Under the pieces are notes generated by a model that was not told where the DNA came from, did not search any database, and was given only the letters and a program-made list of their open reading frames with translations. This document shows, piece by piece, positions 16,761 through 64,000 of a stretch of DNA of 64,000 bases (positions within the stretch are counted from its first letter, which is position 1; the number at the start of each line of letters is the position of its first letter). Where the stretch lies: positions 806,001 to 870,000 of the forward strand of contig NC_088302.1 of assembly GCF_032854445.1 (NCBI RefSeq), given 5' to 3'. The translations under genes were made by a program, and so were the position numbers. Origin of the DNA: Liolophura sinensis (Eukaryota > Mollusca > Polyplacophora > Chitonida > Chitonidae).

Positions 16761-16802
16761 TACATGTTTTCAGGTAATGCAAACCACAGAACCTGACAAC
16801 CA

Positions 16803-16932: not shown

Positions 16933-16974
16933 AGTACAGGTACATTCATGTATGTACCTATCGTACCTATGCAC

Positions 16975-21783: not shown

Positions 21784-21877
21784 ATGGCGGCTTCAAGCGA
21801 ATGGATGTTAACGTCTGTGGTGGTGATTTTGTTTCTGATGATGATGGTGATAAGAGGAAAACAACTGCCAGAATCAG
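21784..21877 (+). CDS. Gene 1 exon 1, signal peptide
   Basis: ATG in good context (CAAAATGG). The 31 codons contain a hydrophobic core (V-V-V-I-L-F-L-M-M-M-V-I) ending at R-G-K-Q. The donor is TCAG then GTAAGT, nearly consensus, and the exon leaves in phase 1. An upstream in-frame start was not needed. Confidence 0.8.
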
Positions 21878-24800
21878 GTAAGTGGTCGTGTGAAACCATC
21901 GAGTAAATTGCATTTGAAGCTATTTAGTTATGACACGGTTTGCCTTGGTATATAATTGTTTAACCGTCACCCTGTCGGTATACACAGGCCGGCAATATTC
22001 CTTCCTGGAACCCTTGTGCGCCTACTTGTGTCTGTAATTTATAAGTGTTCTCAGTATGGTTCAAATTAGTATATATGTGTCGTACGTTGGAAGGTCTGAC
22101 AGCAACCTGCGGGTGGTTGTGGGTTTCCACCTGGCTCTGCCCAGTTTCCTCCCACCATAATGCCGGCCGCCGTCGTATATGTTAAATATTATTGAGTACT
22201 GCGTAAAACACTAATCACTAATCACTAATCACTAATAATATAAAAAATAGTATATATGTGGGTATGAGAAGGCTCACGATGATGTATAGAAATAAACATA
22301 CATCAATTTCAAGATAAACGGTTAGATTTATGTTTGGAACATACATCGTAAACTTCAGGTGATGCCATATTGTCACCCTTGAAAATTACAAAAAAAGGAA
22401 ATGAAAAACAGGGGTGGGGTGGGGTGGGGGGTGGTCTGCGAAGATGTAGTAAATAATGTTATGATTCTTTTTTAGGAAAACTGGTATATTTATTTGAATG
22501 CTGTTTAACACTCTACACAATAATTATTGATGTCATCTTTGTGGGTGGAGGAAACCGTAGAGCCAGGGATAAACCACAAAGTTTTGGCAAGTTAATGGCC
22601 AACTGTTTCACGTATTGGAATGTTCTGTGATGTCCTGTGAAACAGCATGCACTTTGTGACAGAACATTCCTACAAATCCCATTACCGTGGGTTGTATATA
22701 TTGTGGAAAAGATCGACCTTTGAATCCTGAATTAAAAGGCAGCTGAAATAAATATATATGATCTTCATAGCACAAACATATTTCATTTTATTTCAGATGC
22801 CAACGATAAAGCCTTCTCGAAGAACAGTCAATCGGTAAATATTCATTCAAGCGTTTGAATCTACCAACAATCTTTACATTATACAAAAGAACGGATTCTC
22901 CCAAAAAGTTAAAAATACGTCTCCAAAGAAGAAGACAAACAAAGATTGCATACATATTACCATATATAGCATGCAAGTTAGTGATGACGATAATTGCATT
23001 TGCGAATGCTCCGCAGGGGTCACCTTAGAGCAGGGGTGGAATTTATCTCACGTGACCAATTAAAGCCCCTCATTAACTCGGGTTAAGCGGAAGCCGATCA
23101 AAGGGTCGCTGGGAAACACTTTCGACATTATTTGTTGTATTCTGCTTTGTATGGCATATGGATGCGGCCATTCGACTTTACGCCGAACCAAAACCCACCA
23201 AGACGAGGCGACAACCCGAGGTGTCGAGGTGAAAAGTCGAGTCACCGCAATCGTATTCCATAGCTTTGGTCTCTGTATCTATAAGTGACAGCAGTCCGTG
23301 TATATTTTCTGTCGTGTTACAACGGTGTAGGATTCCACAGCACTGAATACTAATTATATTGATAACTACTTCATTCGGATTTTTCTTTTTGATCAAATAA
23401 GAAATAATCTCTCTCGTTTGCTTTAAAACTGTATATATTTTACCTTTTTAATTTGCATTAATATATATTGTTTCTGCCAATATCGACATAAACAAAGAAC
23501 TGACGATTCTTCACACTCTCTACGGATCGATTATGCCTGACGCGATTAAGTTAGTCCAGGGATAAACAGATGGTACAAGATAATTGAGGCTGCTTTAGTT
23601 AGTTTAGTGCTAAGCAAATGAAACAATATAACCCCAGGCGCACGGGTTAGTCCAGAGCTAAGCAGATGGTACAAGATAATCTGAGGCTGCTTAAGTTAGT
23701 CCAGAGCTGAGCAGATGGTACAAGATAATCTGAGGCTGCTTTAGTTAGTCCAGAGCTGAGCAGATGGTACAAGATAATCTGAGGCTGCTTTAGTTAGTCC
23801 AGAGCTAAGCAGATGGTACAAGACAATCTGAGGCTGCTTTAGTTAGTCCAGAGCTAAGCAGATGGTACAAGATAATCTGAGGATGCTTAAGTTAGTCCAG
23901 AGCTGAGCAGATGGTACAAGATAACCTGACGCTGCTTAATTTAGTCCAGAGCTGAGCAGATGGTACAAGATAATCTGAGGCTGCTTAAGTTAGTCCAGAG
24001 CTAAGCAGATGGTACAAGATAATCTGAGGCTGCTTAAGTTAGTCCAGAGCTAAGCAGATGGTACAAGATAATCTGAGGCTGCTTAAGTTAGTCCAGAGCT
24101 GAGCAGATGGTACAAGATAATCTGAGGCTGCTTAAGATGAGGTTGCAAAATGTAGATACTATTACCTCTCCTAAAATTTTTACATCCCAGATTTATTTAT
24201 TTGTGTATTAATAGTCTTCTTGTTGTTTTGTGCCATACTTCAGTGTTACGACCCTGATTAGATTTCTTGTGGGATGGAAATAAGCAGTCTTGCTGAGACT
24301 CGCTGGGGTATTACCCTCTGCTCGGTACCTGACTTCTCTCATGACGTAAATCCACCGATATATACATAAACTCGACCGCACTTTTCTCTACAATTATGTT
24401 TTTGTATATCACTGTTATCAATTTATCAGATCAGATTGCCGGAATCCTGCCGACCGGAATTCCGGAGTTTGCCGAACCACACGATGTGCCTGTTTGATAG
24501 TCCGGATGTGGTCGATGCCGGCATCTCCATGGTGACACGTAACTACATCATCGGTGAACATAACCGAATTCGAGGAACGGTTATCCCCCCTGCCACGGAT
24601 CTGACTTATTTGGTAACTACGGAAACACGCCTTCTTTTGTCTTCATCGCACGGCATTATATCACGGAAAAGTTCTCCTTAGGAAATCAGCTTTAGTACAA
24701 GAAAGTATTCAGTCCCAGGTTACAAACAGGTCATATAGGTCTATAGACGGTTAGTCTGCAGTAACTGTACGTACGATGCAAAATGATGCACATCGGACAA

Positions 24801-27800
24801 CTTTTAGACATAAAGCTGCCACTCCTAGACTTATGTCAGACTTGTTCTAACTTATCATTCCTGAAATTTAAAATGACATGGAAGAACAGTAGAAAAGAGA
24901 GAGAGAGACAGAGAGTTTTAATTTTTTTCAGGCATAGTCAATCATTCAAGCAACCAATTAATAAATCTGCCCGTATCATACTGAAGCTGACTCTCATTCG
25001 TTCATTCACGTGTTCAGGTATGGGACGACAGGCTGGCAGCGTTAGCAGAGAAGTGGGCTAAGCAGTGTCAGCAACTGTCTGATGACAGCCGACAACTCCC
25101 AAGTGAGTAGCTCATTATAGTTAGCAACTGTCAGACGACATTCGACAACTACAAAGTGGGTAGTCCATGTTAATCAGCAACAGTCAGATGACAGTCGACA
25201 ACTACTAAGTGGGTAGTTCATGTTAATCAGCAACTGTCAGACGACAACCGACAACCACTAAGTGGGTAGTTCATGTTAATCAGCAACTGTCAGACGACAT
25301 TCGACAACTACTAAGTGGGTAGTTCATGTTAATCAGCAACTGTCAGGCGACAACCGACAACTACTAAGTGGGTAGTTCATGTTAATCAGCAACTGTCAGG
25401 CGACAACCGACAACTACAAAGTGGGTAGTCCATGTTAATCAGCAACAGTCAGATGACAGCCGACAACTACTAAGTGGGTAGTTCATGTTAATCAGCAACT
25501 GTCAGGCGACATTCGACAACTACTAAGTGGGTAGTTCATGTTAATCAGCAACTGTCAGACGACAGTCGACAACTACTAAGTGGGTAGTTCATGTTAATCA
25601 GCAACTGTCAGACGACAGTCGACAACTACTAAGTGGGTAGTTCATGTTAATCAGCAACTGTCAGACGACAGTCGACAACTACTAAGTGGGTAGTTCATGT
25701 TAATCAGCAACTGTCAGATGACAGTCGACAACTACTAAGTGGGTAGTTCATGTTAATCAGCAACTGTCAGATGACATTCGACAACTACTAAGTGGGTAGT
25801 TCATGTTAATCAGCAACTGTCAGATGACAGTCGACAACTACTAAGTGGGTAGTTCATGTTAATCAGCAACTGTCAGACGACAGTCGACAACTACTAAGTG
25901 GGTAGTTCATGTTAATCAGCAACTGTCAGGCGACAACCGACAACTACGAAGTGAGTATCTCATGTCAGTTGTTCTCATGCGTATTAACATAATCAATAAA
26001 CTCATTGCCTTTAGAGATAAACAAAAAGATTAAGCAACAGTATTTCACAATGCATGTATAGACACCTGCACGAATCTATTAATTTTGGATAATAGGACAA
26101 CGAAAGAGCCTTCCTGCATTTTACCTGATGACAGCTTATTGCAAATGAGTGTTTTAATGAGCTTATAATGATAGTCATTCTGGAAATTTGGAACTCTTGT
26201 TTTAACCTCAAAGTCAACTTATTCGCTCTATCTGGCTAATTGACCACTGTAAATGCTTCATACAACAGTTGCTATATAAAGCTCAAACTGGGACTTGACC
26301 AGCGTATAGTACAATAACTCAGGATAAACTCAAGTAAGGTCATTTTATCAGATAAATATTCTGGCCACCATCTCTGTAATATGAGAGTTATTCTGAGCAG
26401 ATTACGGGGCGACCATAGGTCAGAATGGCGCTTGGGGCTACCAAGACTGGAAGGGTGCCCTAGGGGCGTGGTCAGGCGAGGCGGAAATATACCGGTTTGG
26501 TCGGGATCCCGAGAGCTACCTCCCCGTGGGCCACACCTGGCAAGACATTGGGCATTATACGCAGGTGAGTCTACCATTCACTCTGTGTAACGTGCTGAGG
26601 CCAGTTTTACAATTATGTCGTAACACTATGACAAGCGCATTCGCCATATCTTGTCATAAAGGTTACGCCAGGCGCAGTCTTCGAATGGTTCGTAAAGCAG
26701 GCCCGAGGGGTGTTGCCGGGCAGAAATCAGAACATAAGTCTGAAGGCAAACAAAATACTCTTTTGATTTCAGACAGTGTCTTTTTTTTTGCCATAGAGAT
26801 TGCTTTCACGCCTATATAATTAAGTCAAAACAGCTACAAGGTCGGGAAAGTGGGTTAATAATCGGAGATTATGTAGCAATTTAGGGTCACACAGAGAAGG
26901 ACTTATACACCTGTTACTGTTTACTTATTTGATTGATGTTTTACGCCGTACTCAAGAATTTCACTTACAAGACGGTGTCCAACATTATGGTGGCAGGAAA
27001 CTGGACACAGACCGGGGGATATCTATGTTTACAAGTCACAGCGCGCGGAGAAGACAGATAAGCAACTCATGAAAAAACAGATAGCTTGAGAATATCTTCC
27101 TCATGTTTGTTTTTTAAGGTCAAAAGAAGAAAAGAAAACATGAAAGCCGCTTATAAAGTTTTGTGAGTGTTTTTGCTTGACATTTACAAGCATGCACAAG
27201 AAAATTATGATTTTCCATCTTTACACTCCAGGGTTAATAAACGCGTCTATGACGGGATATAACACCCATTCTTTCTACCCCGTCAGTGATCAGTATGCCC
27301 TAGGTTGTACTCAGAACAGCATGTGAGTTCTGCAAAAACACCTAGACTATCTGGGAAGCGGAAAATTACATAAATCCAACGAATACACTATCGCCGACAT
27401 CGATTTAAAAATAGACATTTTCCTGAACAACATTTTGCAGGACGAATTTCTTCACCCACTGTGTTTGAAACCAGGGAAATCTAGCTTCCGGGTTGTCTTA
27501 TAGAATAGCGTATAATTTCACACAATCATCTGTTGGTGTCGGGAGTCATACTTTTCCATGTATGTGAAGAAACTAATAGCGGCGGGCGATTTGACCATAA
27601 CCCAGTTACGCAATAGGCCTACTACACATACAGCTGAGTAGATCCACGCTAAGCTGTGGCAGAATTCAGGCTACGGTCGTGATGCTCTGTGAGGAAAATA
27701 ATCCAGAGAATCAACTCAGATGAATGGTTGCGTGGAAGGGCAGAAAAACAAACATTTGCTGCAACGAATGTAGAGCCTATAATAGTCCCGCAATTGCCAA

Positions 27801-30800
27801 TTAACCCCTATTGTTGTTGTTGTTGCAGATGGTTTACAATACGACTGTAAGAATAGGCTGTGGATTCGCCAAGTGCCGCGAGGTCGAGGCTCAGAAATAC
27901 ATAAGCTTTTATTTCTGTAACTATGCCTCCGGGTGAGATTGTCTAGTATTTGTATGTATAGGTCTATATCAAAAAACGGATTGTTAGGCAACTGAGTGCT
28001 ATTAAAAAATCCAGTAACTCTTGAAATACCATTTAAACGAAGATATAATATGCTATTGTAAGAAGAGAGAGATAAACATTTCAACCAAATGCCTTTATCA
28101 TTAACTTAGCTTCGGTCAATGCATAACCTGGTGAAGTCTGATCACGTTCTCTACCTGGAACTTTTTGACTTCTGTACGACAATAATATTTCACCGCTAAA
28201 ACGTATACGGTAAATCATAATGGAGCATATGGATAGATAGTACAGGATGGAGTGAAGTAACGATAACACTCGTACCGATAAGCCACACCCAAAGTTCACT
28301 GGCGTCCCACCATGGATCGAGAAAAAACATACGCAGTGCCAAAACCGAATCTTACTTTTTCGTAAGTTAGAATGAAACATGAGGCACTTTATGACTGAGA
28401 CATCTATGCAAAACATTTTTAACCTATTTTTTGGAAAGCACCATTGTTTTGTTCACAGTCAGAGTTATCGTCAGGCTTTTCCGTACACGAACGGAAGTCG
28501 GTGCAGCGCATGTCCCGGAAGTTGTGTTAAAGGCGTTTGTAGTAAGTAATTTACCTTTGCTCTTAGCTTTGATTTATCACATCTGTGAGAATTTCACAGG
28601 ATGGTAGACATTTTGGCGCATAAATAAGTGTTTCTCATGTACGGTGTAACGACCTCCGGTATAGTAATGATTTTCAAAAGATCTGACTTGATAAATGTAG
28701 CGAAATCACAGTCAAACTCATGACAAACTCTGAATAATTGTAGCGAAATCACAGTCAAAGTCATGGCAAGCCCTGAATAAATGTGGTGAAATCACAGTCA
28801 AAGTCATGACAAGCTCTAAATAAATGTAGCGAAATCACAGTCAAACCCACGACAAACTCTGAATAAATGTAGCGAAATCATAGTCAAACTCATGACAAAC
28901 TCTGAATAAATGTAGCGAAATCATAGTCAAACTCATGACAAACTCGGAAATAGTTCACCAATGGGAACATTCGGCCGACATAAATGTGTAGACAGTGTTA
29001 CGTAGAGAAGGTTGTGTAGACATAGTGTTACGTAGAGAAGGTTGTGTAGACATAATGTTACGTAGAGAAGGTTGTGTGAACATTCGGCCGACATAAATGT
29101 GTAGACATAGTGTTACGTAGAGAAGGTTGTGTAGACATAATGTTACGTAGAGAAGGTTGTGTGAACATTCGGCCGACATAAATGTGTAGACATACTGTAA
29201 CGTAGAGAAGGTTGTGTGAACATTCGGCCGAAACAAATGTGTAGACATAGTGTTACGTAGAGAAGGTTGTGTAGACATAATGTTACGTAGAGAAGGTTGT
29301 GTGAACATTCGGCCGACATAAATGTGTAGACATAGTGTTACGTAGAGAAGGTTGTGTGAACATTCGGCCGACATAAATGTGTAGACATAGTGTTACATTG
29401 TGTGAATTTAGAACAGTTCAGGTAATTCATAAATAATGCTTAATCCAATGATTATTATTATAATGCAGTAAGGTGGATATTCAATGTTTCCCATCACTAT
29501 TACTGGTATCTTTCCATCGCTGTTTTCCTGTATATTTGTCACCAGTGGTATTATTTTCTCTTCACAGTGTGCGGCGGAAGGATTTGCGTCAATGGCGGTC
29601 ATTTGAACCTGGCCACGTGCACCTGCGAATGTCCCACATTATACAGCGGCATCAACTGTAAGAAGGGTAACTCACTTTTGGCAGTTTATTTCCACGATTA
29701 TCGGTTATGTAAAGAAGGCTTTCTGCTGTAACATTATTTTCCTGTCACATGCATATATTTTCCCAAAACTGAAGCTTACATACACGTAAATGAATGAATG
29801 TCGTTAGGCACCCATGTAGTATATTACACTGAATGAATGTCGTTAGGCACCCATGTAGTATATTACACTGAATGAATGTCGTTAGGCACCCATGTAGTAT
29901 ATTACACTGAATGAATGTCGTTAGGCACCCATGTAGTATATTACACACAAGAAACTAAATTAGTCCCAGTGGATTTTGTGTTTTAGGGAAAGGAAGATTT
30001 TATAACGAATAAAGTATATCAGTTCAGTGTGTATCTTAAGAGAAACATGCAAGGTTGCCTTCTCTGAAAACAGACACAATCCAATTGAACTGATTTACTA
30101 TTTTGCGTGTTTTACAAACGTCTTGATTGATTTGCCCTACAAAGGATGCGGTGTATTGTGTGTTTCATAAACGTCCTCTTGTTCTGTTTGATTTCAGTGG
30201 TTTGCCCTCCAAAAGACGAGGTGTTTTGTGGGAGGGAATGGCAGCCAAACATGTGCCAACTGTTCTCCAACGTCCCAGAAAAATGTCCATTCATGTGTGG
30301 AATATGCCCTGGTGAGATTAACATCAACTTCAATCTGTATTTTAAAATCTGACTAGATTTTAGTAATGATTCGTTGAGTAATTTAACAGGTCAAAAACAC
30401 GTCCCATCTTCATTTTGAATGCTAAGTTTAATACAATGAATAATTCTAATATTCTCACTGAATTTTGTTTGCAATAGTATGGATGTCCACCATTTATGTA
30501 TGTAGAGTTGTGCAGTTACGTTTCACTGACAAAAGGCAAGTTTGCTGATAACTGTGAGCGTTTTTACTGAAATCTGAACACAGGCGACTAACCTCATGAC
30601 GTGCGCTAATGGAGTATACAAGGTACAGGTGTTGTGCACACGACACCATTAGTATGACCTCGTATCACTGGAGATCTGCATGTCATGGATTTACCCCTGA
30701 ACATTCCACTCAGATAAGACAAACTGAAAATCCGCTGCTCTCTTAAAACTGAAAAGTTATATGTAAATTTGACAGTGTTAAAGAAAAGATGTTGGCAGTG

Positions 30801-33800
30801 CTGGAAGCGAGAAAAAATTATTATGTTAAGGTAACACTTTCTAAAGCATAAGAAAATAAACACTTTACAAAGTGTTTAGAAAATGTTGAAGACCTAACCT
30901 ACCACTATCTTACGTGAAATGTTTAGTTTTAGTCAGATAGTTTTGGGTGCTGTGTTATAAACATTAGAAATATTGTGGTATAACATTATGTTACAACCTA
31001 CAAACAATTATGACGCGATGTGGCACTCACATGTCACAACCTGTACCCACAAACAATCATGACGCGATGTGACACTCACATTTCACAATTTGTACCTACA
31101 AACAATTATGACGCGATGTGGCACTCACATTTCACAATTTGTACCTACAAACAATCATGACGCCATGTGGCACTCACCTGTCACAGCTTGTACCTACAAA
31201 CAATCATCACGCGATGTGACACTCACATTTCACAATTTGTACCTACAAACAATCATGACGCGATGTGGCACTCACATGTCACAGCCTGTACCCACAAACA
31301 ATCATGTCACGATGTGACACTCACATGCCACAGCCTTTACCTACAAACAATCATAACGATGTGGCACTCACATGTCATAGGCTGTACCTACAAACAACCA
31401 TGATGCTCTGTGGCATTCACATTTTACCATTTAACGTGGTATGTTAGTTTAAGACTAACAATAAATGTTGACAAGTCAGTATTTGCGTTTAAAGGGAGTA
31501 TTTGCTATGACCACTTTCTTTTGTCTCCTGCGCCGCTGTGACCGTGTAGTGCCCGTGGAGGAAGGTCGCCAGAAGCCCCCCAACACCAGCTCCTCCAACA
31601 CAAGGCCCCCCATTACCAGCTCCCCCGACCCCCAGGAATATGTGTCTGACTTCGGCTGTAAATACACGGGCAAAAGACCAAGTCCAGGTATGTAGCGCGC
31701 GACGATTAAACTTCATTAGATATGAATGTAATTCACAAGACTTCTGTAGGGGCCTATAATTTGTGTTGTCTTTTGTGGTAGGATTCAAGTTCAAATAAAT
31801 TGTTTTTCAAAATCATCTGGGAAACTACTTTTATAACATAATGGTATATAACTTTGAAACAGATGAAAAATATCTGAATAAATTCTTCAAATCAGCCAAT
31901 GGAACTTACTGTAAAGGAATAAGCAATTAGTTAATAATGTATACGGTTCTTTTGTGTTTGGCTACAACCAATTAGAATATGTCAAACCATGAATCTCTTC
32001 TTTCTTTATACCTGGCGTCAGAGGAGTGTTTAAAGCTCGGGGACGGGGGTCGGGACACAGCCGTCTGTGAGAGTCAGGGGGGCACCGAGCGGTGTAAAGA
32101 CTGTTATAATCTGCCTGAGACCCGCGATGCCTGCCCCGTCATGTGCGCAGTATGTCCGGGTAAGTCGCCTTCACTGTCTGTTTGAGATCACGAACACTGG
32201 GTAGTGTTCAGGACGTCGTTTCACTCTTCATACTCTCCAAAATTACGACTTCCCGTCAGGAGTTACTGCTTGTAACGATGTGAAAGGAGAGTCTTCAGGA
32301 GAGTCGGAATTGGGAGAGCTAAGCTGGCCCCGTGTTTTAACGTTTATTCCAAATATTCCCGAACACTGAGGGATTATATGCACTAAACAGAGTGGTTATT
32401 AAGAATTAGAAAACAGAAAAATTAAATCTTTTATTCTTTTTCTGGCATATCGTTCTTTGTTTTCCTGAAAAACAGATTCTCTTATACTACCTTTTCATGC
32501 ATCCTTTAAGCGCACTACCCTTTCCCAGGCCTAACCTCAGCAGATATAAGATGATTTTCGTGTTTTAACTGAACACCACTCAGATTTTTTTTTTGAAACA
32601 AGATTTAATATTATTGATTACCCAAGATTTGTAAATATTGTGTGGACAACTCATCCAACCCATTCTTTCATATATTAACACTTATATCATTCGTCGGTTT
32701 GGCTTACATTTCTAGGTAGGAATGTGATTTGAGCATATTGAGCATGATTAATAAAATTAGTGTCACAAACTCTTACAATTATTCGAATTTATATTGGTAT
32801 TTGTAACGGAATATAGTTATATAGAAGTGGAAGTGCGCTCATGCAGAAGTCTTCAGTGATGTGGGAAAGACATACGACTGTAATAACCGAGGAGTTATAT
32901 TTCTGTTATAACATGATATACAAAATATCATGTTATAAATGAAGATAGTAAAAGTATACAGGTATCTCAGTGGCGCTTTTATTTCAGCTTTTATTTAATT
33001 CAGTAGTTGCTGAATGGTGTAGCAGTACTTGTAGCTTTTGTCATGTTCTCAAACCGTTATCCCAGACTTGTGTCCCTGTATCCGCTGACTACAGATCCAT
33101 AGAAACACAACAGCGAGAGCAGGAACAAGTCTGATTTCTGTGCACTGAGTGCTGACTATGGTGGTCAGTATATTCGCTTTGTTAGGAGATAATGTGAATT
33201 CATTTGTAAGATGCATATTTGTAACACGACACGTACAGTGTACGTTTTCCGATGGCGGTATATCCATATATAATATCTCCATGGTTTACAACAGTTTGGA
33301 GGTCTGTCGTTGTGCGGATTATGACGTGCAGCGTTCCTGTACGTGTGTGAAGCATTTAAGCTGGTATACTATTGTTTGAGTTATGTGAACACCACTCAGA
33401 TTGCACTCTCTCCCTCCGTCTCTTCCACGTAGGGAGGAGAGGAACGGTCATCAATGGCGTGAAGCTGCCATCTGTGAGGACGGATGGAGTTCGTTGCCCG
33501 CTTCGCGCTCAGGAGAGAGTGCTTTAGCTCCTCATCGTGGTGGTGAGGTTTGTCAGTTTTACCTGACGTTCCCTGGATGCATACTATAGAAATGATCCCT
33601 AAAAGTATGATCTTACCACAGCAATTGCGAGAAAAATTGACTACCTCATTGATGCCCCTGTTTAGGTAGTGGGCCCTAACAAGTTTCAAGGCCTAAATAA
33701 GGTACTTATGTGTAGCTGAATGTAGCTTAAAATAAAAAAAGTTTAATTTCACGTTTAAATTAAGAAATCTAATGGATGGCTTTGTGAGTAGGGGAGAAAT

Positions 33801-37134: not shown

Positions 37135-37324
37135 GTGAAGTTAAGTTCATCTGTTTTATTGGAGGCCGGAGTCACTCACCCGTGTATTTCACTGAAAATG
37201 GACAACAGGGTATTCCCCGTGCAATGTCGACCCGGGTCAAGGCTGTTACTGACCATTGTTCTGTTGTTCTGCATGATTGTAAAACGTCAATAGTTTGTCC
37301 AGAAAACGTCATTGCAAAGGCAGT

Positions 37325-37330
37325 AATAAA
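37325..37330 (+). terminator. Putative polyadenylation signal of gene 1
   Basis: AATAAA 190 bases after the gene 1 stop codon, before the tandem array that separates the two genes. Confidence 0.5.
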
Positions 37331-37569
37331 CAACAGACTTCACAGCTTGCACCCGAATTACTATAGGCGCGAAAGGCCCCTCATTTCACGACGTATATGC
37401 CTTGAAGAGAGCAGAAAAAGAAACTAAAATGATCACATTTCATACTTAGCCAGTCTGATCATTTGTCTACCTTTGTCACCGCAATGGCTATTGGGGTTCA
37501 AGCTGGGTTAACAATTTTGTTTTTGTAAAACCTGATAGCTTAATATCTTACCAGTTAGTACACAAGATG

Positions 37570-39560: not shown

Positions 39561-39755
39561 GACTACACGGGGACGGTTCTCCATTCTTTGCATTCTGCTT
39601 ATATGACCAGAGATCACCCCTTCAAGGTTCTGCAGCGACGGTGAAACAACCCTTGACATGCTGAAGGTGTATTTTTCTATTTCAAATAATAATCCAAGAC
39701 AAACAGGGCATATACGGGTTGTAGTGTTGAATGATCCATGCATTCATTTTGGAAG

Positions 39756-54900: not shown

Positions 54901-57900
54901 CCAGTGTATGGTGGGGAAGAGTGTGAACAGGCTGAGTACAGCACAGAACACTTAACGTCATGACATGTCTGTGAATGTCAACCAGTGTATGGCGGGGAGG
55001 AGTGTGAATAGGGTGAGTACAGCACAGAACACTTAACGTCATGTCATGTCAGTGTGAATGTCGACCAGTGTTTGGCGGGAAATAGTGTGAACAGGGTGAG
55101 TACAGCATGGGACCCTTAACGTCATGACATGTCTGTGAATGTCAACCAGTGTATGGCGGGGAGGAGTGTGAACAGGATGAGTACAGCACAGAACACTTAA
55201 CGTCATGACATGTCTGTGAATGTCGAGCAGTGTTTGGCGGGGAGGAGTGTGAACAGTGTGAGTACAGCACAGAACACTTAACGTAATGACATGTCCATTA
55301 ACGTCAACCAGTGTATGGTGGGGAAGAGTGTGAACAGTGTGAGTACAGCACAGAACCCTTAACGTCATGACACGTCTGTGAATGTCAACCAGTGTTTGGC
55401 GGGGAGGAGTGTGAACAGTGTGAGTACAGCACAGAACACTTAACGTAATGACATGTCCATTAACATCAACCAGTGTTTGGCGGGGAGGAGTGTGAACAGG
55501 GTGAACTAGAACCGTTAGAATCTAACCCTAAATGAGGTAAACTGAGCCAGATTTGTTAACCATCAGACTGGTGGTAGCAGACTGAGACTTTCGTTGCATT
55601 ATCTGGTGGTTACCACTTGATACTTGCTCAGTTACATCTTGATATTTTCTCAGTTACAGCTTGATACTTTCTCAGTTACAGCTTGATGCTTGCTCAGTTA
55701 CAGCTTGATGCTTTCTTAGTTACAGCTTGATATTTGCACATTTACAGCTTGATACTTGCTCAGTTACAGCTTGATACTTTGTCAGTTACAGCTTAATGTT
55801 TGCTCAGTTACATCTTGATACTTGCTCAATTACAGCTTGATACTTGCTCAGTTACAGCTTGAGTCTTTCTCAGTTACGGCTTGATGGTTGTTTAGTTACA
55901 GCTTGATGCTTGGTCAGTTACAGCTTAATGCTTGCTCAATTACAGCTTAATGCTTGCTCAGTTACATCTTGATACTTGCTTAATTACAGCTGGATACTTG
56001 CACAGTTACAACTTGATACTTGCTCAGCTACAGTTTGATACTTGCACAGTTACAACGTAATGCTTGCTCAGTTACAGCTTGATACTTGCTCAGTTACAGT
56101 TTGATGCTTGCTCAATTACAGCTTGATGCTTGCTCAGTGGCAGCTTGATACCTGCTCAATTACAGCCTGATGTTTGCTCAGTTACAGCCTGATGCTTGCT
56201 CGGTTACAGCTTGATACTTGCTCAGTTACAGCTTGATACTTGCTCAATTACCGCTTGATACTTGCTCAGTTACAGCTTGAGTCTTTCTCAGTTACGGCTT
56301 GATGCTTGCTCAGTTACAGTTTGATGCTTGCTCAATTACAGCTTGATGCTTGCTCAGTGGCAGCTTGATACCTGCTCAATTACAGCCTGATGTTTGCTCA
56401 GTTACAGCTTGATGCTTGCTCAGTTACAGCTTGATGTTTTCTCAGTTACAGCTTGATACTTGCTCAATTACAGTTTGATGTTTGCTCGGTTACAGCTTGA
56501 TACTTGCTCAGTTACAGCTTGATGCTTGCTCAGTTACAACTTGATGCTTGGTCAGTTCCAGCCTGATACTTGCTCAGTTACACCTTGATGCTTGGTCAGT
56601 TACAGCTTGATACTAGCTCAGTGACAGCTTGGTTTAGGTCGGTTGATAACCATTTATGTTTTACTGTAATCATGAATGCAAATTGGTGACTAATAAAAGA
56701 GTTCTACGTTGGAAGATACCAATCTGCTCCATTTGGTAACTGATTGGTTACCAAGTACTTACACTTTAATTTTCAACTTGATAAAACATGTAAACCAGTG
56801 TGTGACAGTCTATTTTATTGTATTTTGCAGTGTTTTGTCCCCCGGAAGACGCTTGGTTTTGCGGTTCCTCATGGCTCCAGTCTTCCTGTAGCGAGTACGC
56901 CAACGCCCCGTCCCTCTGCCCGTACCTATGTGGACTGTGTCCAGGTAATCAACTATCCTCTTCCTCTCAACAACCCGTCCCTCTGTCCTGTGTGGACAGT
57001 GTCCAGGTAATCAACTATCCTCTTCCTCTCAACAACCCGTCTCTCTGTCCTGCGTGGACAGTGTCCAGGTAATCAACTCTCCTCTTCTCCCGTCCCTCTG
57101 TCCGTATTTATGTGTACTGTGTCCAGGTAATCATCTCTTCTCTTCCTCTCAACAACCCGTCCCTCTGCCCGTACCTATGTGGACTTTGTCCAGGTAATCA
57201 GCTCTCCTCTTCCCCTCAACGCCCCGTCCCTCTGCCCGTACCTGTGTGGACTGTGCCCAGGTAATCAGCTCTCCTCTTCCTCTCAACGTCCCGTCCCTCT
57301 GTCCTGTGTGGACACTGTCCAGGTAATCAACTCTCCTCTTCCTCCCAACGCCCCATCCGTCTGTCCTTACCTGTGCGGACTGTGTGTCCAGGTAATCAGT
57401 ATGTTTCACCGTCGTCGTTACATAAACTTTGGTCCTTTTTTCCTTTTTATGTCAGCCTTCTTTGACAGGATGTCTCAGTGAGTCAGTTTTAAGGCTGTCA
57501 CAATAAAAACCTGGTTGACAACAAACGTAATGTTGAAAAACGATAATTAATCCAAATTAGTATACAAGCCGTCAGTCGACATTCTTTGGCTGTGTTAAGT
57601 AGTAAATTTTTAATACACATAGTAACCATAAATTAAACAGGGTTTAATTTGGGATTCTAGTCTTGTGTGTGGTCACTACAAGAGCAACTGACAGGTGTGT
57701 AGATGGGACGTTTCTTGTACATATAACCTCAGATACCTTCACACAATACGGTAAGATCAGCAATTGTGGATTTGCCCTTGGCAGTGCTTGACTATATATG
57801 TCTGCAACAGCAGCATCTCAAATAGACCCATTTTAGGGAATACTAACTCAAGCCCATCTTACCTTATGCATAAGACTTTGAAATTAGTAACCTTGGTGCT

Positions 57901-60900
57901 TCTCTGGCATTGTACTGAGAATAATTGGATGAGACAAGAACTGGTCAGCAGCTAGGTTATGTCTAACATGTTCAAGTATATCCATAAGAACAATTTTTGT
58001 CTCATGTATTCGGCATCACGTTCCATACATAATGCATTGAACGTGCCTGCGAAAGGGTGATCGTCATAAGACAGAAACATTCCGCAAGTCTTTAAACTTT
58101 GTAATTCTTCATTCTGTTTAACAGTGAATGGTTCAGACGCCAACTTCACCACAACAGCTGATGTGGCGTCAACGGAACTCGCTCCGGATGTTATGTCATC
58201 TATAGAAGTCAGTTCGGCAGAAGTTACAAAATCTATGACTTCATTACCTACAACCTTCAGAAGCACGTTGCCAACATCAGACACAAAGTCCACACAGACA
58301 ACAACATCAACACCTATAGTCGAAACAACGCTAGTTATCACAACAACAACAACAGAAGAGACAACAACAACGATACAGCTTCCTGTGACGACATCCTCGC
58401 AAACTGCGTCGACGGTAGCCATCACGGACGCGATGTCTGTAGGTTCAACATTATCAGAGGCGCCATCAGAAACTGTCATATCTGGAACTACGTCGACACT
58501 GGAGGACAAAGGTACGATGTCTAAAACAACACCACCACCAGGTGAGCTTTATACGCCTGTTTTCACCAAATGAATGCACGTGATCTCTTACACATGCTCG
58601 TACCACTTTGTTTAATCTTGGATCATATACTTTTTCGACAAAGGTAACGGAAATTAAAAACAGACCTAAGGAAATGAAATGTCACAAAAGCGATGGATTC
58701 ATTGGCGGAGCTAAATAGGTTCAGTTCAACTTGCACTGCAAGTAGCCTACACCAGTGTGCTCGTTTGTTCTTCTCAGGTGTTACTTGTCACAAAGAAATA
58801 CCTTTCGGTTTGTTACCCAGTAATTTTAAATACTCTTTCAGATTCAACAAACCCCACGGCAACTGTTTCGCCAGGTATTCCAGAAGTGACGGCTACAAAA
58901 TCAACAGCACAGCCAATTATCACTACCACCGAGAGAGAGGTGACGATTTGCCACTATTCCGGGAAGAAACATGACTCGGGTACTGTGTGTAGCCCTTTAC
59001 GTCGAGATGGAGATTGAAGAATTCGCAGGAATGGGAAATATTAGCATCATACTGATAAAATGTTACAAACGTTTTACCTAACTGACATGGTTTGGTGTGG
59101 CAAAATCTTTCTGAAACTGTCTTTTTATCATAAATATTTCTCACCCACCATCAATGGCGTTTTGGTAAAAAATTTTTTCTGAAGTCCAACATTCCTGCCC
59201 AATCATGTCGCGTGTCCCAGTGTGACGTCATTGCCGGAAGTTCGTCACTGGCCATGCGCGTTGTGGAATGTTTCCCTAGTCCAAGCTCTTTCATCTTTAA
59301 CGTGATCTCACATTTAAGCTTAATGCATAAAATAAATAAATCGTACATAAATAATTTTACGTTCAGGATATCCCCACATTCATCAGAGATGTATATTGTG
59401 TTTCTAAACCAGACACGTGTTTGGGGTTCGGGACCTGGGGTCAGGATCGTGGAGATTGCTTATCACGTGGTGGACCGTGGGGGTGCGAACAGTGTGTTGC
59501 AGACCCGGAGTTTGCCAGGGGATTCTGCCCTGTGATGTGCGGAATCTGTGATCGTGAGTATCAAGCCACGGAAGGTCTTTGGGAACAGGGTTGGCTTACT
59601 GGTGTCCAGCAAAGATCGAAGTTTCGGGGTGTTGTTCAACAAAGCGATCGTAACTACGAAAGGCAACGTATATGTATCGTAACAACCATAGGCCCGCTAG
59701 TTACAATAAACAACCAACAATCAGCCATCCAATGGGGGCTGTGTGGCCGATGTGGTTAGCGCGCCAGCTTGGCGCAATGACACAGGAACCTCTCACCAAT
59801 GCGGTCGCTTTGAGTTCAAGTCCAGTTCATGCTTTCTTCCTCTCCGGCCGTACGTCGGAAGGCCTGTTAGCATTCTTGGGATGGTCGTGGGTGTTCTCAT
59901 GGCTCTGCAGAGTTTCCTCACAACATAATGCTGGCCGTCGTCGCATAAGTGAGACATTCTAGAGCTCGGAGAAAATACGAATCAAATAGATAAATAAATA
60001 AATCATACAATCAACAAGGCCTGCAATCAGTCACACAATCAACACCACTTACAATCAGTTGTACAATCAACGCGGCTTAAAATCAGTCGTAGGGCCTACA
60101 ATCAGTAATACAATTAACACGGCTTACAATCAGCCATACGTCTTACAATCAGTTATACAATCAACTCGGGTTACAACCAGTCTTATGGCTTACAATCAGT
60201 TGTACAATCAGCATGGGTTACAATCAATCATACGGCTTAAAATCCGTTATACAATCAGCACGGCTTACAATAAAGCATACGGCTTACAATCAGTTGTACA
60301 ATCAACACGGCTTTCAATCAATCATACAGGCTTACAATCCGTTAACACAACTTACAATTAACCATACGGCCTACAGTCAGTTATACAATCAACACGGGCT
60401 ACCACCAATCATACGGCTTACAATCCGTTATACAATCGAAACAATTTACAACCAATCATACGGCTTATACAATCAACACGAGTTACAATTAATCAGACAA
60501 TCAACAAGGTCTACAGTCAAATATTTTGTGAGAAATGAATCCAGATTTGCTTATCTCTCCCTATTGGAACATGCTGCAAGATTAAGACCTAGGAACTTCT
60601 GGGGTCGTAGTGTGCGTGTTGTATTTTTTGTTGCAGCTATGTCAAAAATCTTGTGGAATACAACTCAGTTATCCTAAAGATGTAACTGATGTTATTGTAG
60701 CCCAGTGTGACGGGTTGATGTGCGAACATGGCGGCACGCTGAACATAGACGAATGTGAGTGTATCTGCCCGAGGTATTTTAGCGGAGACCGATGTCAGAC
60801 AGGTATGTAAAACATTATCATAACGGCATACAGACTAGAATCGCTTATCACACTTACACTGTGTGCACGGGTTTTCTTAGATGAAATAACTGTAATGTCT

Positions 60901-63308
60901 ATTGATGGGTTAGGTGTAGACGAAGCTGACAAATGTGTAAGTTGTGAACCTGTTTTTGTATTCACATGAATTATTACAACCAATTATACGGCTTACAATC
61001 AGTTGTACAATCAGCATGGGTTACAACCAGTCTTACGGCTTACAATCAGTTGTACAATCAGCATGGGTTACAATCAATCATACGGCTTAAAATCGTTAAA
61101 TACATTCATGTGACCTGCCTTAGAAAAGGGGTGTAAATATATTCCGGTTCAGACGCAGACTCTGATAATAATGTCGTGGGTTCGAATCCAGCTGTCACGT
61201 CGTTTTTACAAACTCAGCGTACTTTCTCATACATTCTCTCTTTGTCTAATCTCGGAAGGTATATTAAATACATAAGTGCTTTATCGATGGGGAGGGTAAA
61301 TAGTAACTAAAGTCATAAATCTAATGACGTGCCTTTGAAGTAAAGCACTTGTTGAGGGAGAGATATAAATTCGTCTGCGCTACTGCGGTACATACAAATG
61401 CCGCTTTCGAATTGATGGACTTGCGGAATGCGGTTTCAGATTCCAGATCAACAGTCTCCGCAGGTGAGAAAAAAGTGACAACAACAAGAGCAGCACAAAC
61501 AACTACCCAGACAACAACACAGGCAACAACAGAGACAACAGTACAGGCAACACCCCAGACAGCAGCACAGGCAACAACCCAGACAACAGCAAAGGCAACA
61601 ACCGATATAATGACTACCATCACAGAAAGAGAGGTGACGATTTGTCCCTATGCCGGGGAGAAACATGACTCAGGTACTGTATGTAGTCGTTCACGCAATC
61701 AGTCATAATATCAGTATTGATCCCATACTGATGGTATTTACTATAATTGCATCTGTTTGACTTGGACTGGTGAGCTATAAACATTAAGTTTACAAACTTA
61801 AGCCCAATGAGGTAGCTTGTTCCAACCTAGCGTTTATTTCCGGAAGTTTGTGGGTTGTCTTGTGCTTGGAGGTTTGCCCGGTCCACGCTCCAAAACATGA
61901 AGTCCATCATAGGAATAAAATCCACTTCGGCACATCGTAAAACATGAAAAGATAAATACATGAATAAAGATAAGCAGATTCACTTTCAGAATACCCCCGC
62001 ATTTATCAGAGATGTATACTGTATTTTCCAAACCAGACACGTGTTTGGGGTTCGGGACCTGGGGTCAGGATCGTGGAGACTGCTTATCACGTGGTGGCCC
62101 GTGGGGGTGCGAACAGTGTGCTGCAGACCCGGAGTTTGCCCGAGGCTTCTGTCCTGTTATGTGTGGAATCTGTGATCGTGAGTCTCGGGACCCGATTGTT
62201 CATTTGTGTATTACCTAATAAACGTCTTAAATTACATTATAGATGAAATATTTTATCGGAACTCAGCAGCCAGTGCGTTTGTCCAACGCCTAAGTGTAAC
62301 AAGTGTAGATTTAGTTCATGTTTAAATGTAAAGCTCTTTGTTCATAGTGGTACTGGTAGTTTAAACATGTAACTGATGTCATTGTAGCCCAGTGTGACGG
62401 GTTGATGTGCGAACATGGCGGGACGCTGAACATAGACGAGTGTGAGTGTATCTGCCCGAGGTATTTTAGCGGAGACCGATGTCAGACAGGTATATACAAC
62501 ATTATCATAACCCGTTCGGACTAAACTAACGGTTACCACTCCGATACTGTGTATTGGGGTTTACCGGAAATTACTTAGATCGATGTACCTGGAAGCACAT
62601 TGTACACAATGACGTGAGCGTTTTCTAACATTTTACACCGACGATAAAGTCCAAATATTCGGGGTATTCTTTTCTTAGCGGGGTATGAAGCCTTACTGTT
62701 CGGACATGAGGTTAAGTGTTCAAAGACTCTCCCCGTTGAACCGTGCACAGCTCTCATTTTCATAGCAAAGGCTCCCTTTAACGTTCTTACACAGGAAGAT
62801 CTTCCACCAACGTGCGGATATCCTCCCACCATTATGCTGACCGTCCTACAATATGTGAAATATAAGTACGACGTAAAGCACCAATCAAATAAATAAATAA
62901 ATAAGTAAATATCGAATCAAATAAAGAAAAAAAGTTGTCACTGGAGGAAATGTTTACCTCCAACAGCCACATTATCAGGTGATCTCTGGTCACGGGCGGT
63001 TTTACAGAAAGAGGATGCTTTCTCACTTTGTTTGATCTGGAAAAGCATGCTAATTTAAGTTTCAAATCTGAATTTTTTGCTTGACATAATACGGAAGAAA
63101 AGCACAAGAGTCATCACGACACATAAATATCATCCGGTTTTCGATTAAGTGATCTGGAATGCGGTTTCAGACACAAGAGCCACTATTTCGTCAGGTATTC
63201 CAGAAGTGACCACTATAACAACAGCCCAGACAACAACCCAGGCAAGGGCTACAACCATCGCGAGAGAGGTGACGATTTGCCCCTATTCCGGGGAGAAACT
63301 TGACACAG
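39756..63308 (+). CDS. Gene 2: CAP/EGF/ShK paralogue with mucin-like and repeated modules (partial)
   Basis: Exons: 39756-39935, 40419-40503, 45393-45550, 51219-51319, 51659-51742 (one-base frameshift), 52895-52993, 56831-56944, 58125-58541, 58842-58979, 59413-59553, 60701-60802, 61440-61673, 62037-62177, 62388-62489, 63171-63308, then on past the window. Layout: CAP, hinge, EGF, ShK, a long Thr/Ser mucin-like exon, then modules of linker, long ShK-like and EGF. All module exons are symmetric phase 1-1, so modules can be added without breaking frame. The leader was not found and the C-terminus is outside. I infer an extracellular, heavily O-glycosylated protein. The hinge frameshift means it could be a pseudogene, a null allele, or contain a sequence error. 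Confidence 0.75.
40419..40503 (+). CDS. Gene 2 exon b, CAP helix
   Basis: Acceptor GTTTCCAG, donor CCCA then GTAAGT; 85 bases, same phases as gene 1. V-W-D-S-E-L-A-R-V-A-G-K-W-A-R-Q-C. Its 3' boundary is not amplified, unlike the gene 1 counterpart. Confidence 0.87.
40520..41450. repeat. 39-bp minisatellite, about 23 copies
   Basis: Units of TACGTCACAGCGTGTAACTT plus TGTACGTGTCTGACTGAAA. A minus open frame (159 codons) is a by-product of the period being a multiple of three. Confidence 0.9.
41500..42450. repeat. 59-bp minisatellite in a 177-bp higher-order repeat
   Basis: Three monomer types recur in fixed order. They are distinguished by CATATGCCGTACGTCCACAG, CATAAGCCGTACGTCTACAT and CATAAGGCGTACGTCTACAT, giving about five 177-bp superunits. 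The plus frame of 158 codons results from the period. Confidence 0.9.
42754..45392 (+). repeat. 115-bp array derived from the intron/exon c acceptor boundary
   Basis: About 23 copies. Each carries TCTCCATCTTTTCTTCACGC-AG followed by GTTACGGGTTAGCGATTGGA-CAGAAC, identical to the real acceptor and first 26 bases of the next exon, then a diverged continuation (ACTTTCTAGGGTGTGCG). The leftmost copy (42754-42790) is the most diverged (ATTATGGGTGTAGCG) and is followed by GTATGT. The real exon is the rightmost unit. Each decoy keeps a pyrimidine tract and AG. Confidence 0.93.
45393..45550 (+). CDS. Gene 2 exon c, CAP core
   Basis: Acceptor CTTCACGCAG, donor CACAG then GTGTGT; phase 1 in, phase 0 out. 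G-L-A-I-G-Q-N-A-A-W-G, the helix with N-I-W-Y-E-E-V, Y-R-F-G-E-N-P, and G-H-Y-T-Q. The CAP Glu is present. It is the last of about 24 acceptor copies. Confidence 0.9.
45590..45870. repeat. About 83-bp repeat, three diverged copies
   Basis: Units contain ACACAGGTAGTGC, ACAGTCACACCTGTCGAACT and TTATTCCTCATGTAC. The ACACAGGTNGTG part resembles the donor of exon c (ACACAGGTGTGTTCTC), so it may be another boundary-derived repeat, but the match is short. Confidence 0.65.
45900..50355. repeat. 67-bp satellite-like array, about 67 copies, two subfamilies
   Basis: Longest array in the window. The left subfamily (to about 48500) has GTAGAAGTTACATTGTCGGT and CCCATCTGCAATGTCCGTAT. The right subfamily has GTTGTAGATGTGGTATTGTC and TTCCAGTTGTGATGTGCGTA. 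The change is abrupt, with a few mixed units around 48480-48660. No coding signal. Confidence 0.93.
50443..50504 (+). ncRNA. Near-perfect 29-bp hairpin
   Basis: Left arm 50443-50471 and right arm 50476-50504 pair over 29 positions with one G/T wobble; the loop is AAAG. The core reads GCACATATGGCAAATGCCTG. It lies in the gene 2 intron just after the long satellite. It could be a small fold-back insertion or a transcribed hairpin; a 4-base loop is short for a typical microRNA precursor. RNA status is inference. Confidence 0.35.
51219..51319 (+). CDS. Gene 2 exon d, CAP signature exon
   Basis: Acceptor CTTTTTTCAG, donor CTGG then GTAAGG; phase 0 in, phase 2 out. L-V-Y-N-T-T-V-R-V-G-C-G-Y-A-K-C and F-Y-F-C-N-Y-A-P-G. 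The intron stretch 50505-51218 shows nothing else. Confidence 0.9.
51659..51742 (+). pseudogene. Gene 2 exon e, hinge exon with one-base insertion
   Basis: Acceptor TTTTTCAG, donor TGTC then GTAAGT. The exon is 84 bases against 83 in gene 1. It starts in the expected frame (S-D-Y-P-Y-I) and ends in a different one (N-G-T-Q-C-S-A-C-P-D-N-C-E-K-G-V-C). Alignment to gene 1 places one extra base at about 51690. Read as it stands it stops at TAG 51705-51707. Either the gene is broken, the allele is null, or the base is a sequence error. Confidence 0.8.
52135..52398 (-). mobile_element. Nearly full-length SINE in a gene 2 intron
   Basis: Same order as the 17924-18192 element: (ATTT) tail, core (GGCGGCCAGCATTATGGTGA), tRNA-like head ending in GAGCCACGGAGGCCC. 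It is flanked by imperfect repeats (CCTGTTTATTGTTT at left, CCTGTTCATTGCTT at right), a decayed target-site duplication, so the insertion is older. Confidence 0.88.
52895..52993 (+). CDS. Gene 2 exon f, first EGF-like domain
   Basis: Acceptor TGTTTTTCAG, donor CAGG then GTGAGT; symmetric phase 1-1, 99 bases. C-N-G-K-L-C-R-N-H-G-T-L-N...C-Q-C-E-C-Q-P-V-Y-G-G-E-E-C. Its 3' two-thirds and donor seeded the following array. Confidence 0.88.
52994..55510 (+). repeat. About 80-bp array derived from the EGF exon / donor boundary
   Basis: About 31 copies. Each carries ACTTAACGTCATGACATGTC, TGTGAATGTCAACCAGTGTA, TGGCGGGGAGGAGTGTGAAC and AGGGTGAGTACAGCA. This is the last 65 or so bases of the EGF exon plus its donor and about 12 intron bases. 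The GTGAGT donor is kept in most copies. TGTATGG/TGTTTGG and GAAGAG/GAGGAG variants are interleaved. Confidence 0.93.
55610..56640. repeat. 22-bp minisatellite, about 46 copies
   Basis: Unit CAGTTACAGCTTGATACTTG-CT with GATGCTTG and GATGTTTG variants. A block around 56085-56175 recurs at about 56305-56400, showing secondary duplication. Confidence 0.9.
56831..56944 (+). CDS. Gene 2 exon g, first ShK-like domain
   Basis: Acceptor TATTTTGCAG, donor CCAG then GTAATC; symmetric phase 1-1, 114 bases as in gene 1. V-F-C-P-P-E-D-A-W-F-C ... S-L-C-P-Y-L-C-G-L-C-P, six Cys. Confidence 0.87.
56945..57400 (+). repeat. About 60-68-bp array derived from the ShK exon / donor boundary
   Basis: Seven further copies of the exon end and donor: CCCGTCCCTCTGCCCGTACC, TATGTGGACTGTGTCCAG, GTAATCAACTCTCCTCTTCC. 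Each unit therefore has a pyrimidine-rich run before CAG and GTAATC directly after. Short deletions (CTGTCCTGTGTGGACAGTGT) vary the length. The following 57401-58124 shows no gene. Confidence 0.9.
58125..58541 (+). CDS. Gene 2 exon h, mucin-like Thr/Ser domain
   Basis: Acceptor TGTTTAACAG, donor CCAG then GTGAGC; symmetric phase 1-1. About 139 residues, no Cys, very rich in Thr and Ser with Pro (T-T-T-S-T-P-I-V-E-T-T, T-T-T-T-T-E-E-T-T-T-T). Such segments are usually O-glycosylated stalks. Gene 1 has no exon of this kind; its only comparable region is the short linker of exon 10. Confidence 0.87.
58842..58979 (+). CDS. Gene 2 exon i, linker of module 1
   Basis: Acceptor CTCTTTCAG, donor TCGG then GTACTG; phase 1-1, 138 bases. 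Thr-rich start, then T-E-R-E-V-T-I-C-H-Y-S-G-K-K-H-D-S-G. The linker ends with the single Cys presumed to pair with the next exon. Confidence 0.85.
59413..59553 (+). CDS. Gene 2 exon j, long ShK-like domain of module 1
   Basis: Acceptor CTAAACCAG, donor GATC then GTGAGT; phase 1-1, 141 bases. D-T-C-L-G-F-G-T-W-G-Q-D-R-G-D-C ... G-F-C-P-V-M-C-G-I-C-D, seven Cys. Nearly identical to the exon at 62037 (one V/A replacement seen). Confidence 0.87.
59733..59995 (+). mobile_element. SINE, plus orientation, in a gene 2 intron
   Basis: tRNA-like head first (GGCCGATGTGGTTAGCGCGC, B box GAGTTCAAGTC), then core (ACATAATGCTGGCCGTCGTC), then (AAAT)n tail. Full length but diverged. Confidence 0.85.
59996..60515. 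repeat. Minisatellite of about 25-30 bp
   Basis: Irregular units of CTTACAATCAGTTGTACAAT-CAACACGG and CTTACAATCAATCATACGG, about 18-20 copies directly after a SINE tail. Confidence 0.85.
60701..60802 (+). CDS. Gene 2 exon k, EGF-like domain of module 1
   Basis: Acceptor TTATTGTAG, donor ACAG then GTATGT; phase 1-1, 102 bases. Q-C-D-G-L-M-C-E-H-G-G-T-L-N-I-D-E-C-E-C-I-C-P ... G-D-R-C. The protein is identical to the module 2 exon at 62388, with only silent base differences seen. Confidence 0.88.
60960..61100. repeat. Short second block of the 59996-60515 repeat
   Basis: TACGGCTTACAATCAGTTGT-ACAATCAGCATGGG repeats as in the earlier array, on the other side of the EGF exon. This suggests one array split or copied around the exon. 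Confidence 0.8.
61440..61673 (+). CDS. Gene 2 exon l, linker of module 2
   Basis: Acceptor GCGGTTTCAG, donor TCAG then GTACTG; phase 1-1, 234 bases. Expanded by Thr/Gln/Ala repeats (T-T-Q-T-T-T-Q-A-T-T), then T-E-R-E-V-T-I-C-P-Y-A-G-E-K-H-D-S-G. The extra length relative to 138 bases is simple codon-repeat growth. Confidence 0.86.
62037..62177 (+). CDS. Gene 2 exon m, long ShK-like domain of module 2
   Basis: Acceptor CCAAACCAG, donor GATC then GTGAGT; phase 1-1, 141 bases, nearly identical to 59413-59553. The upstream intron flank (TCAGAGATGTATA and on) is also shared, so the copied block includes intron. Confidence 0.88.
62388..62489 (+). CDS. Gene 2 exon n, EGF-like domain of module 2
   Basis: Acceptor TCATTGTAG, donor ACAG then GTATAT; phase 1-1, 102 bases. 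Same protein sequence as module 1. Confidence 0.88.
62775..62925 (+). mobile_element. Truncated SINE, plus orientation
   Basis: ATATCCTCCCACCATTATGC followed by GTACGACGTAAAGCACCAAT and an (AAAT)n tail. The tRNA-like head is missing or unrecognisable. Confidence 0.75.
63171..63308 (+). CDS. Gene 2 exon o, linker of module 3
   Basis: Acceptor GCGGTTTCAG, donor ACAG then GTACTG; phase 1-1, 138 bases. Thr-rich, then A-R-E-V-T-I-C-P-Y-S-G-E-K-L-D-T-G. If not spliced, the frame would close after about 20 codons. The next ShK-like exon would lie beyond the window. Confidence 0.85.
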
Positions 63309-64000
63309 GTACTGTATATGCCGGGGGAAAAACATGCCCATGTAATGCATGTGCTGGGGCGAAAACATGACCCAGGCACTGTATATGCCAGGGAGAAACA
63401 CGACCGAGGTACTGCATATGCCGGGGAGAAACATGACTCAGGTACTGTACATGCTGGGGAGAAACATGACTCAGGCACTGTATATGGCGGGAGAAATATG
63501 ACTCAGGTAGTGCATATGCCGGTCAGAAAAATGACTCAGGTACTACATATGCCGGGGAGAAACATGACCCAGGTACTGGATATGCCGGCGAGAAACAAGA
63601 CTCAGATACTGTATATGCCGGGAAGAAACATGACTCAGGTATTGTATACGCCAGACAGAAACATGACTCAGGTACTGCATATGCCGGGAAGAAACATGAT
63701 ACAACCACTGTATATGTCAGGGAGAAACATGAAGCAGGTACTGTATATGCCAGCGAGAAACTTGACTCACGTATTGTATATACTGGGGAGAAACATGATT
63801 CAGGCACTGTATATGCCGGGGAGAAACATGATTCAGGACTGAATATGCCGGGAAGAAACATAACTCAAGTACTGTATATGCCGGGAGAAACATGACCAAG
63901 GTTCTGCATATGACGGGGAGAAACATGACTCAGGTACTGTATATGCATGGGAGAAGCATGACTCGGGCACTGTATATGCCGGGGAGAAACATGACTCAAG
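63309..64000 (+). repeat. 33-bp array derived from the linker exon / donor boundary
   Basis: About 21 copies of GGGGAGAAACATGACTCAG-GTACTGTATATGCC, running off the window. The first part is the coding end of the linker exon and GTACTG is its donor. The equivalent boundaries after exons i and l are single copy, so the array arose only in module 3. Confidence 0.93.

Follow-up and report, generated by a model that had tools for sequence, protein, structure and literature searches.

Five tandem arrays in a CAP-domain gene of the chiton Liolophura sinensis have as their repeat unit the edge of an exon together with its splice site. Four of these arrays are located at donors (exons A4, B8, B9, and B17) and one at an acceptor (exon B5). 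When arrays of this and other chiton genes are counted together, the excess of boundary arrays over chance is limited to donors. Two neighboring genes account for much of this excess, which is regarded as suggestive. The arrays are probably mirages, that is, minisatellites born at random positions, of which those straddling a donor are tolerated and those straddling an acceptor are tolerated less.

Exon-edge arrays in the CAP-domain gene

The CAP-domain gene has two modules, A and B. Exons were predicted by eye on the basis of the reading frame, the intron phase, and AG/GT sites. The features are listed below, with coordinates given in the window, defined here as the whole stretch of 64,000 nucleotides that was analyzed.

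21784..32159, + strand: CAP-domain gene, module A, exons A1-A11 (by-eye exon models, homology, and Pfam)
25018..25102, + strand: exon A4, CAP-domain, ending ...CTCCCAA|GTGAGT (model from frame, phase, and site; Haliotis protein colinearity over A4-A5)
25068..25965, + strand: A4 donor array, 53-bp unit composed of 35 bp of exon end and 18 bp of intron, 17 copies including the authentic one
30128..30230, + strand: A9 acceptor, marginal case with two copies (33 bp, 82%)
37025..64000, + strand: module B, exons B0 (tentative) and B4-B17, ending at about base 2234 of the adjoining stretch
42731..45431, + strand: B5 acceptor array, 115-bp unit, 24 copies, the last of which is the authentic B5 start
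45393..45550, + strand: exon B5, CAP-domain (by-eye model)
52895..52993, + strand: exon B8, EGF-like (by-eye name; no Pfam match)
52921..55504, + strand: B8 donor array, unit of about 81 bp, first copy with 73 bp of exon and 9 bp of intron, 32 copies or part-copies
56831..56944, + strand: exon B9, ShK-like (by-eye name; no Pfam match)
56901..57398, + strand: B9 donor array, 62-67-bp unit, 8 copies
63171..63313, + strand: exon B17, Thr-rich (by-eye model)
63284..64000, + strand: B17 donor array with a unit of 33 bp, 22 copies or part-copies in the window and continuation into the adjoining stretch as far as about base 499
L002:5766 to L003:5489 (adjoining stretches): secreted DNase I homologue, the next gene downstream (PDB match, E 1e-57)

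Each modelled exon, with 60 bp on either side, was compared with the window by BLASTN (E ≤ 1e-3). Among the matches listed, multi-copy matches spanning the splice site are present at A4, B5, B8, B9, and B17, with E values down to 1e-40, and no further window array of exon origin is found. Local alignment gives 17, 24, 32, 8, and 22 copies or part-copies, respectively, including the authentic one. Tandem Repeats Finder and the copy counts give a head-to-tail, minisatellite-like arrangement. These five places were first picked out in a sequence-only reading of the window, and both BLASTN and local alignment bear them out, with extents slightly larger than those originally given. A sixth, two-copy case put forward in the same reading (30118-30197) is marginal, being a single match with an E value of 0.001. 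The B17 donor can be placed at ACT|GTATAT, adopted here by intron phase, or at CAG|GTACTG, six nucleotides upstream. In total, 5 of the 19 non-coding arrays of the CAP gene span a splice site and 14 are located away from boundaries.

The sister boundaries are single copy, as had been supposed. The full BLASTN results contain no match to a second copy for B4, A5, or A8, and the one match for A9 is the marginal acceptor-side one. The B11 and B14 boundaries match other modules and the array of B17 and are without tandem copies of their own donors; B14 has only a repeat within its exon. The view that the arrays are recurrent, independent events following the module duplication is supported, and boundary arrays are also present in other genes, including the unrelated DNase I-like and myosin genes.

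Module A contains a CAP domain (PF00188, Pfam E 1e-18). The signal peptide at its start was assigned by eye, and its EGF-like and ShK-like stretches are likewise by-eye names. The EGF-like and ShK-like pieces of module B gave nothing above the Pfam cut-offs. Following the CAP-EGF-ShK part of module B are Thr-rich, ShK-like, and EGF-like modules, with the stop about 2.2 kb beyond the window end. The closest named relatives in a protein search are molluscan CAP proteins from Littorina (51% alike) and Haliotis (48%). Of 17 matches, five carry no species name, and 9 of the remaining 12 are molluscan. The Littorina and Haliotis relatives are annotated at source as 'cysteine-rich venom protein Mr30-like'; nothing in this analysis indicates a venom role for the chiton protein.

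Modules A and B may belong to a single transcription unit. Wherever both edges are known, their exon phases agree, and the phases of tentative exon B0 are compatible with one continuous gene. By-eye modelling did not find the acceptor of B3. Nine hydrophobic stretches starting with ATG are present between the modules, none of which was adopted as a signal-peptide exon of module B. A one-base frame disruption is present in both B7 (window 51659-51742) and B15 (window 61990-62177), and the acceptor of a third copy of the module, shortly beyond the window end (L002, about base 870), is altered. These defects may reflect decay or misassembly of part of the gene. Between the modules, a 1.08-kb segment is duplicated (window 32591-33673 and 34183-35256) with 96.5% identity.

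Splice sites within the arrays

The splice dinucleotide is retained in 17 of 17 aligned copies at A4, 24 of 24 at B5, 27 of 31 at B8, 8 of 8 at B9, and 13 of 21 at B17, authentic copies included. Adjacent column pairs kept as well as or better than this dinucleotide make up 56%, 39%, 77%, 27%, and 100% of the pairs, respectively. By this column comparison, conservation of the splice dinucleotides in the decoys of the five arrays is not exceptional, and the earlier suggestion of selection for the array copies is not supported.

Reading past the authentic donor, an in-frame stop is reached after 6 (A4), 78 (B8), 126 (B9), and 55 (B17) nucleotides. All 22 tested acceptor decoys of B5 reach a stop within 40 codons. 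With the exon-proximal copies taken as splice sites, module A aligns colinearly with the Haliotis protein over the A4-A5 junction, to which the comparison is limited, and the DNase I-like gene read from its exon-proximal sites is colinear with DNase I. Because the proteins spliced in this manner match their homologues, the exon-proximal copies at A4 and in the DNase I-like gene are likely the authentic splice sites. The authentic A4 copy is equal to the decoy consensus at 30 of 35 exonic columns. In the B5 array, the outermost copy is the least similar (83.6%).

The exonic share of the unit lies between 0.24 and 0.92 and is consistent with a uniform distribution (KS P 0.41) in 12 of the 14 counted arrays, with lengths entered by hand and the arrays of L008 and L010 left out. 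These 12 units have no fixed offset relative to the splice site, as expected of seeds that land at random without being cut at the splice site. This distribution lends no support to guidance by splice-site sequence, one of the mechanisms raised in the earlier reading.

Boundary arrays in other genes and the number expected by chance

The DNase I-like gene has arrays at four of its seven donors and at none of its seven acceptors. The array unit of exon 2 is 119 bp in length and contains the entire exon. Pfam gave no match for five single exons and a sub-threshold one for the five joined; the identity of the gene was established by the PDB match. The last intron of this gene (L003:3908-4921) contains a transposase-like frame that is split across two frames and looks Tc1/mariner-like by eye.

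Among ten genomic matches to the CAP family, donor arrays are present at two, L008 and L010, the latter with up to about 44 copies. For myosin, 40 of 81 genome matches were sampled with 200 bp on each side, and 14 arrays are present in the sample. Three of the 40 exons have boundary arrays, at the donors of L048 and L071 and at the acceptor of L060. At another myosin exon (L055, C11), an array is located about 60 bp into the intron, with a unit that repeats 16 nucleotides of the exon edge and the donor. This array was left out of the counts; it is probably an older donor array that has become separated from its exon. Across genes, the units of boundary arrays range from 17 to 124 bp.

Expected numbers were derived from a seed model, in which each array is collapsed to one unit and the seed is placed anywhere that is not wholly exonic. 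For the CAP gene, the input is 19 non-coding arrays, 51 boundaries, and about 24 kb of de-expanded sequence. The DNase I-like gene was chosen as the neighbor of the window and not for its arrays, and the CAP-family and myosin matches were likewise not picked by array. Within the window, the counts cover the arrays from 21.7 kb onward, where exons were modelled. Observed and expected numbers are as follows.

CAP gene, a place already picked in the sequence-only reading: 5 boundary arrays vs 2.0 expected (P 0.041); donors 4 vs 1.16, acceptors 1 vs 1.08
DNase I-like gene alone: donors 4 vs 0.34 (P 1e-4)
CAP paralogues alone: donors 2 vs 0.13 (P 0.007)
Myosin alone: donors 2 vs 1.46, acceptors 1 vs 2.03 (no donor excess)
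All 52 arrays: donors 12 vs 3.10 (P 2.1e-5), acceptors 2 vs 3.57 (P 0.90), both kinds 14 vs 6.66 (P 0.0024); donor:acceptor p 0.0051
Under a minimum of 8 bp on either side: donors 11 vs 2.52, acceptors 2 vs 2.98
Without the CAP gene: donors 8 vs 1.93 (P 2.4e-4), acceptors 1 vs 2.49
Without the DNase I-like gene: donors 8 vs 2.75 (P 0.004); donor:acceptor p 0.052
With both the CAP and the DNase I-like gene removed: donors 4 vs 1.59 (P 0.062), acceptors 1 vs 2.16, both kinds 5 vs 3.75 (P 0.30); donor:acceptor p 0.17

The expected values are somewhat large because a donor as well as an acceptor was assigned to each myosin exon and each CAP match; the sites recognized by script are 34 donors and 40 acceptors in the 40 myosin exons, and nine donors and seven acceptors in the ten CAP matches. 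The arrays of L008 and L010 were found by eye first and counted by script later, and only one of them passes the 8-bp rule. The array of L071 was missed by the script and added by eye, with its donor set one base off without effect on the count. Three DNase acceptors were placed one base off in the array counts.

The earlier proposal that boundary arrays are more numerous than under random placement did not separate the two kinds of site; in the sample counted here it survives for donors only, with much of the excess in two adjacent genes. Its premise of a small target overstates the case: about two boundary arrays are expected by chance in the CAP gene. Boundaries are not a tiny target because arrays are dense in this genome: 64 tandem arrays (period of 15 or more, 2.5 copies or more) cover 17.0% of 200 kb sampled as 20 fixed 10-kb stretches (L016-L035). 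An annotation-free search for strong donor motifs in the 64 array units gave no strict surplus (1 of 64 at p ≤ 0.05 and 10 of 64 at p ≤ 0.10); many of these arrays possibly lie outside genes.

Known boundary repeats and the origin of the arrays

The absence of any established description of such arrays had been asserted, wrongly. Tandem repeats over exon-intron boundaries, at both edges, are described as mirages in the Adh3, TnC, globin, and PGBD5 genes of amphioxus in the accessible text of PMC3087553 and PMC3902484. There, splicing is reported to be regular, lengths to be unstable, and cluster edges to escape homogenization. Later amphioxus work cites Canestro et al. 2002 as the original mirage paper. 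The chiton window has the same features, namely a head-to-tail array, a unit over the boundary, and both donor (four) and acceptor (one) edges. As in the available descriptions of mirages, the copies are minisatellite-like, derive from the 5' or 3' edge, and carry splice signals in many cases. Unlike amphioxus, the chiton is a mollusc and not a cephalochordate, several large arrays are present in one gene and its neighbor, units are 17-124 bp with up to about 44 copies, and the arrays are known here from the DNA of one assembly. A donor bias is not part of the discussion in the accessible portions of PMC3087553 and PMC3902484.

Human genes of segmental duplications also have internal tandem repeats at exon-intron boundaries, as described in part of PMC2812944. 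These are likewise minisatellites at the boundaries of recently duplicated genes whose paralogues differ. They are reported to alter transcripts and to be capable of forming new introns, whereas the chiton arrays seem to lengthen existing introns common to both modules. In the Rogers model, as cited in the accessible text of PMC3087553, an intron is gained when a segment containing AG|GT is duplicated in tandem. The chiton arrays share with this model the tandem duplication bearing a splice site and differ in that no new intron position is seen, the two modules having matching exon phases where both edges are known. Potato RdRp is reportedly a case of such intron gain. Intronic minisatellites are also described for earthworm metallothionein in the available part of PMC12783039. 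No report of boundary arrays in a mollusc, or genome-wide, was recognized in the literature searched, which mostly excludes subscription journals. Arrays of this kind are already known. Their presence in a chiton, how frequent they are in these genes, and the preference for donors seem to be unreported in the searchable literature.

The mirage explanation favored here can be laid out in steps. Short tandem duplications would arise throughout the array-rich chiton genome, and the seed of a minisatellite would at times happen to straddle an exon-intron edge. Arrays would then grow and homogenize by slippage or unequal exchange, and seeds within exons would mostly be purged by selection. A seed straddling a donor would be tolerated, with splicing keeping the exon-proximal, first-transcribed donor and later copies becoming intron. 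Continued use of the first-made, exon-proximal donor would follow from a general kinetic argument based on co-transcriptional splicing. For a seed straddling an acceptor, decoys would be transcribed before the authentic site and, as the donor-to-acceptor count suggests, such seeds would be tolerated less often. The outcome would be longer introns filled with decoy splice sites and an unchanged protein. Against this explanation is B5, a large acceptor array that evidently persists. The absence of a donor excess in myosin, the weaker donor counts once the CAP and DNase I-like genes are both removed, the lack of a strict donor-motif surplus in the 64 arrays, and the frame disruptions in module B, which may point to decay, also count against it.

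Pure random placement overlaps with this explanation, as its products are still mirages, and is the strongest of the alternatives, although it is judged rather unlikely. Dense arrays would meet boundaries by chance, donors and acceptors equally, and the excess would be a sampling accident of two neighboring genes. The myosin counts, the loss of significance when the CAP and DNase I-like genes are both removed (5 vs 3.75), and the lack of a strict donor-motif surplus in the 64 arrays all agree with it. The DNase I-like gene, which was fetched as the window neighbor, has 4 donor arrays vs 0.34, the CAP paralogues have 2 vs 0.13, and the overall donor count has a P value of 2e-5, all of which argue against it. 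An excess at donors and none at acceptors would also be produced by a mutational mechanism tied to donors, in which duplications are seeded, for example, by transcription-associated structures or by breaks where exon and intron meet. This is improbable given the variable offset of the 12 units to the splice site, unit lengths that vary from 17 to 124 bp, and the 14 of 19 CAP gene arrays that are not at boundaries.

Two further explanations assign a function to the copies, and both are considered very improbable. Selection could maintain decoy donors, for instance if they serve as additional U1 snRNP binding sites with a role in protecting long introns or in splicing regulation. The high retention of GT at A4, B8, and B9 (17/17, 27/31, and 8/8), and in 13/21 copies of B17, is in its favor until set beside the 56%, 77%, 27%, and 100% of column pairs in A4, B8, B9, and B17 that are kept equally or better. 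The copies could instead be real alternative exons, and some are open for up to 126 nucleotides (B9); in the DNase I-like gene, one unit contains a whole exon. In-frame stops come early, the B8 repeat units differ in length from the exon, and relatives have no insertions at the compared junctions (A4-A5 and the DNase I-like gene), which makes this equally hard to accept.

A broader proposal is advanced only tentatively. In a minisatellite-rich genome, boundary arrays may accumulate at donors but not at acceptors, such that the genome-wide donor-to-acceptor ratio would read out the tolerance of splicing for surplus sites, through commitment to the first-transcribed donor. Outside chordates, the arrays would then act as a steady source of longer introns and decoy splice sites that is neutral for the protein. 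Published mirages, in the accessible text, are a lancelet matter, and their repeated occurrence in the chiton points to a wider presence in array-rich genomes. Should the donor bias prove genome-wide, natural arrays would provide a ready-made experiment on site choice among dozens of near-identical neighbors and on intron growth.

Minisatellites may be a large unnamed share of the chiton genome. The accessible repeat table for Liolophura japonica (PMC11068029) gives 0.08% for 'other (simple repeat, microsatellite, RNA)' and 14.04% unclassified, under definitions that differ from those behind the 17.0% found here. About eleven more large minisatellites are present at window 3215-17443.
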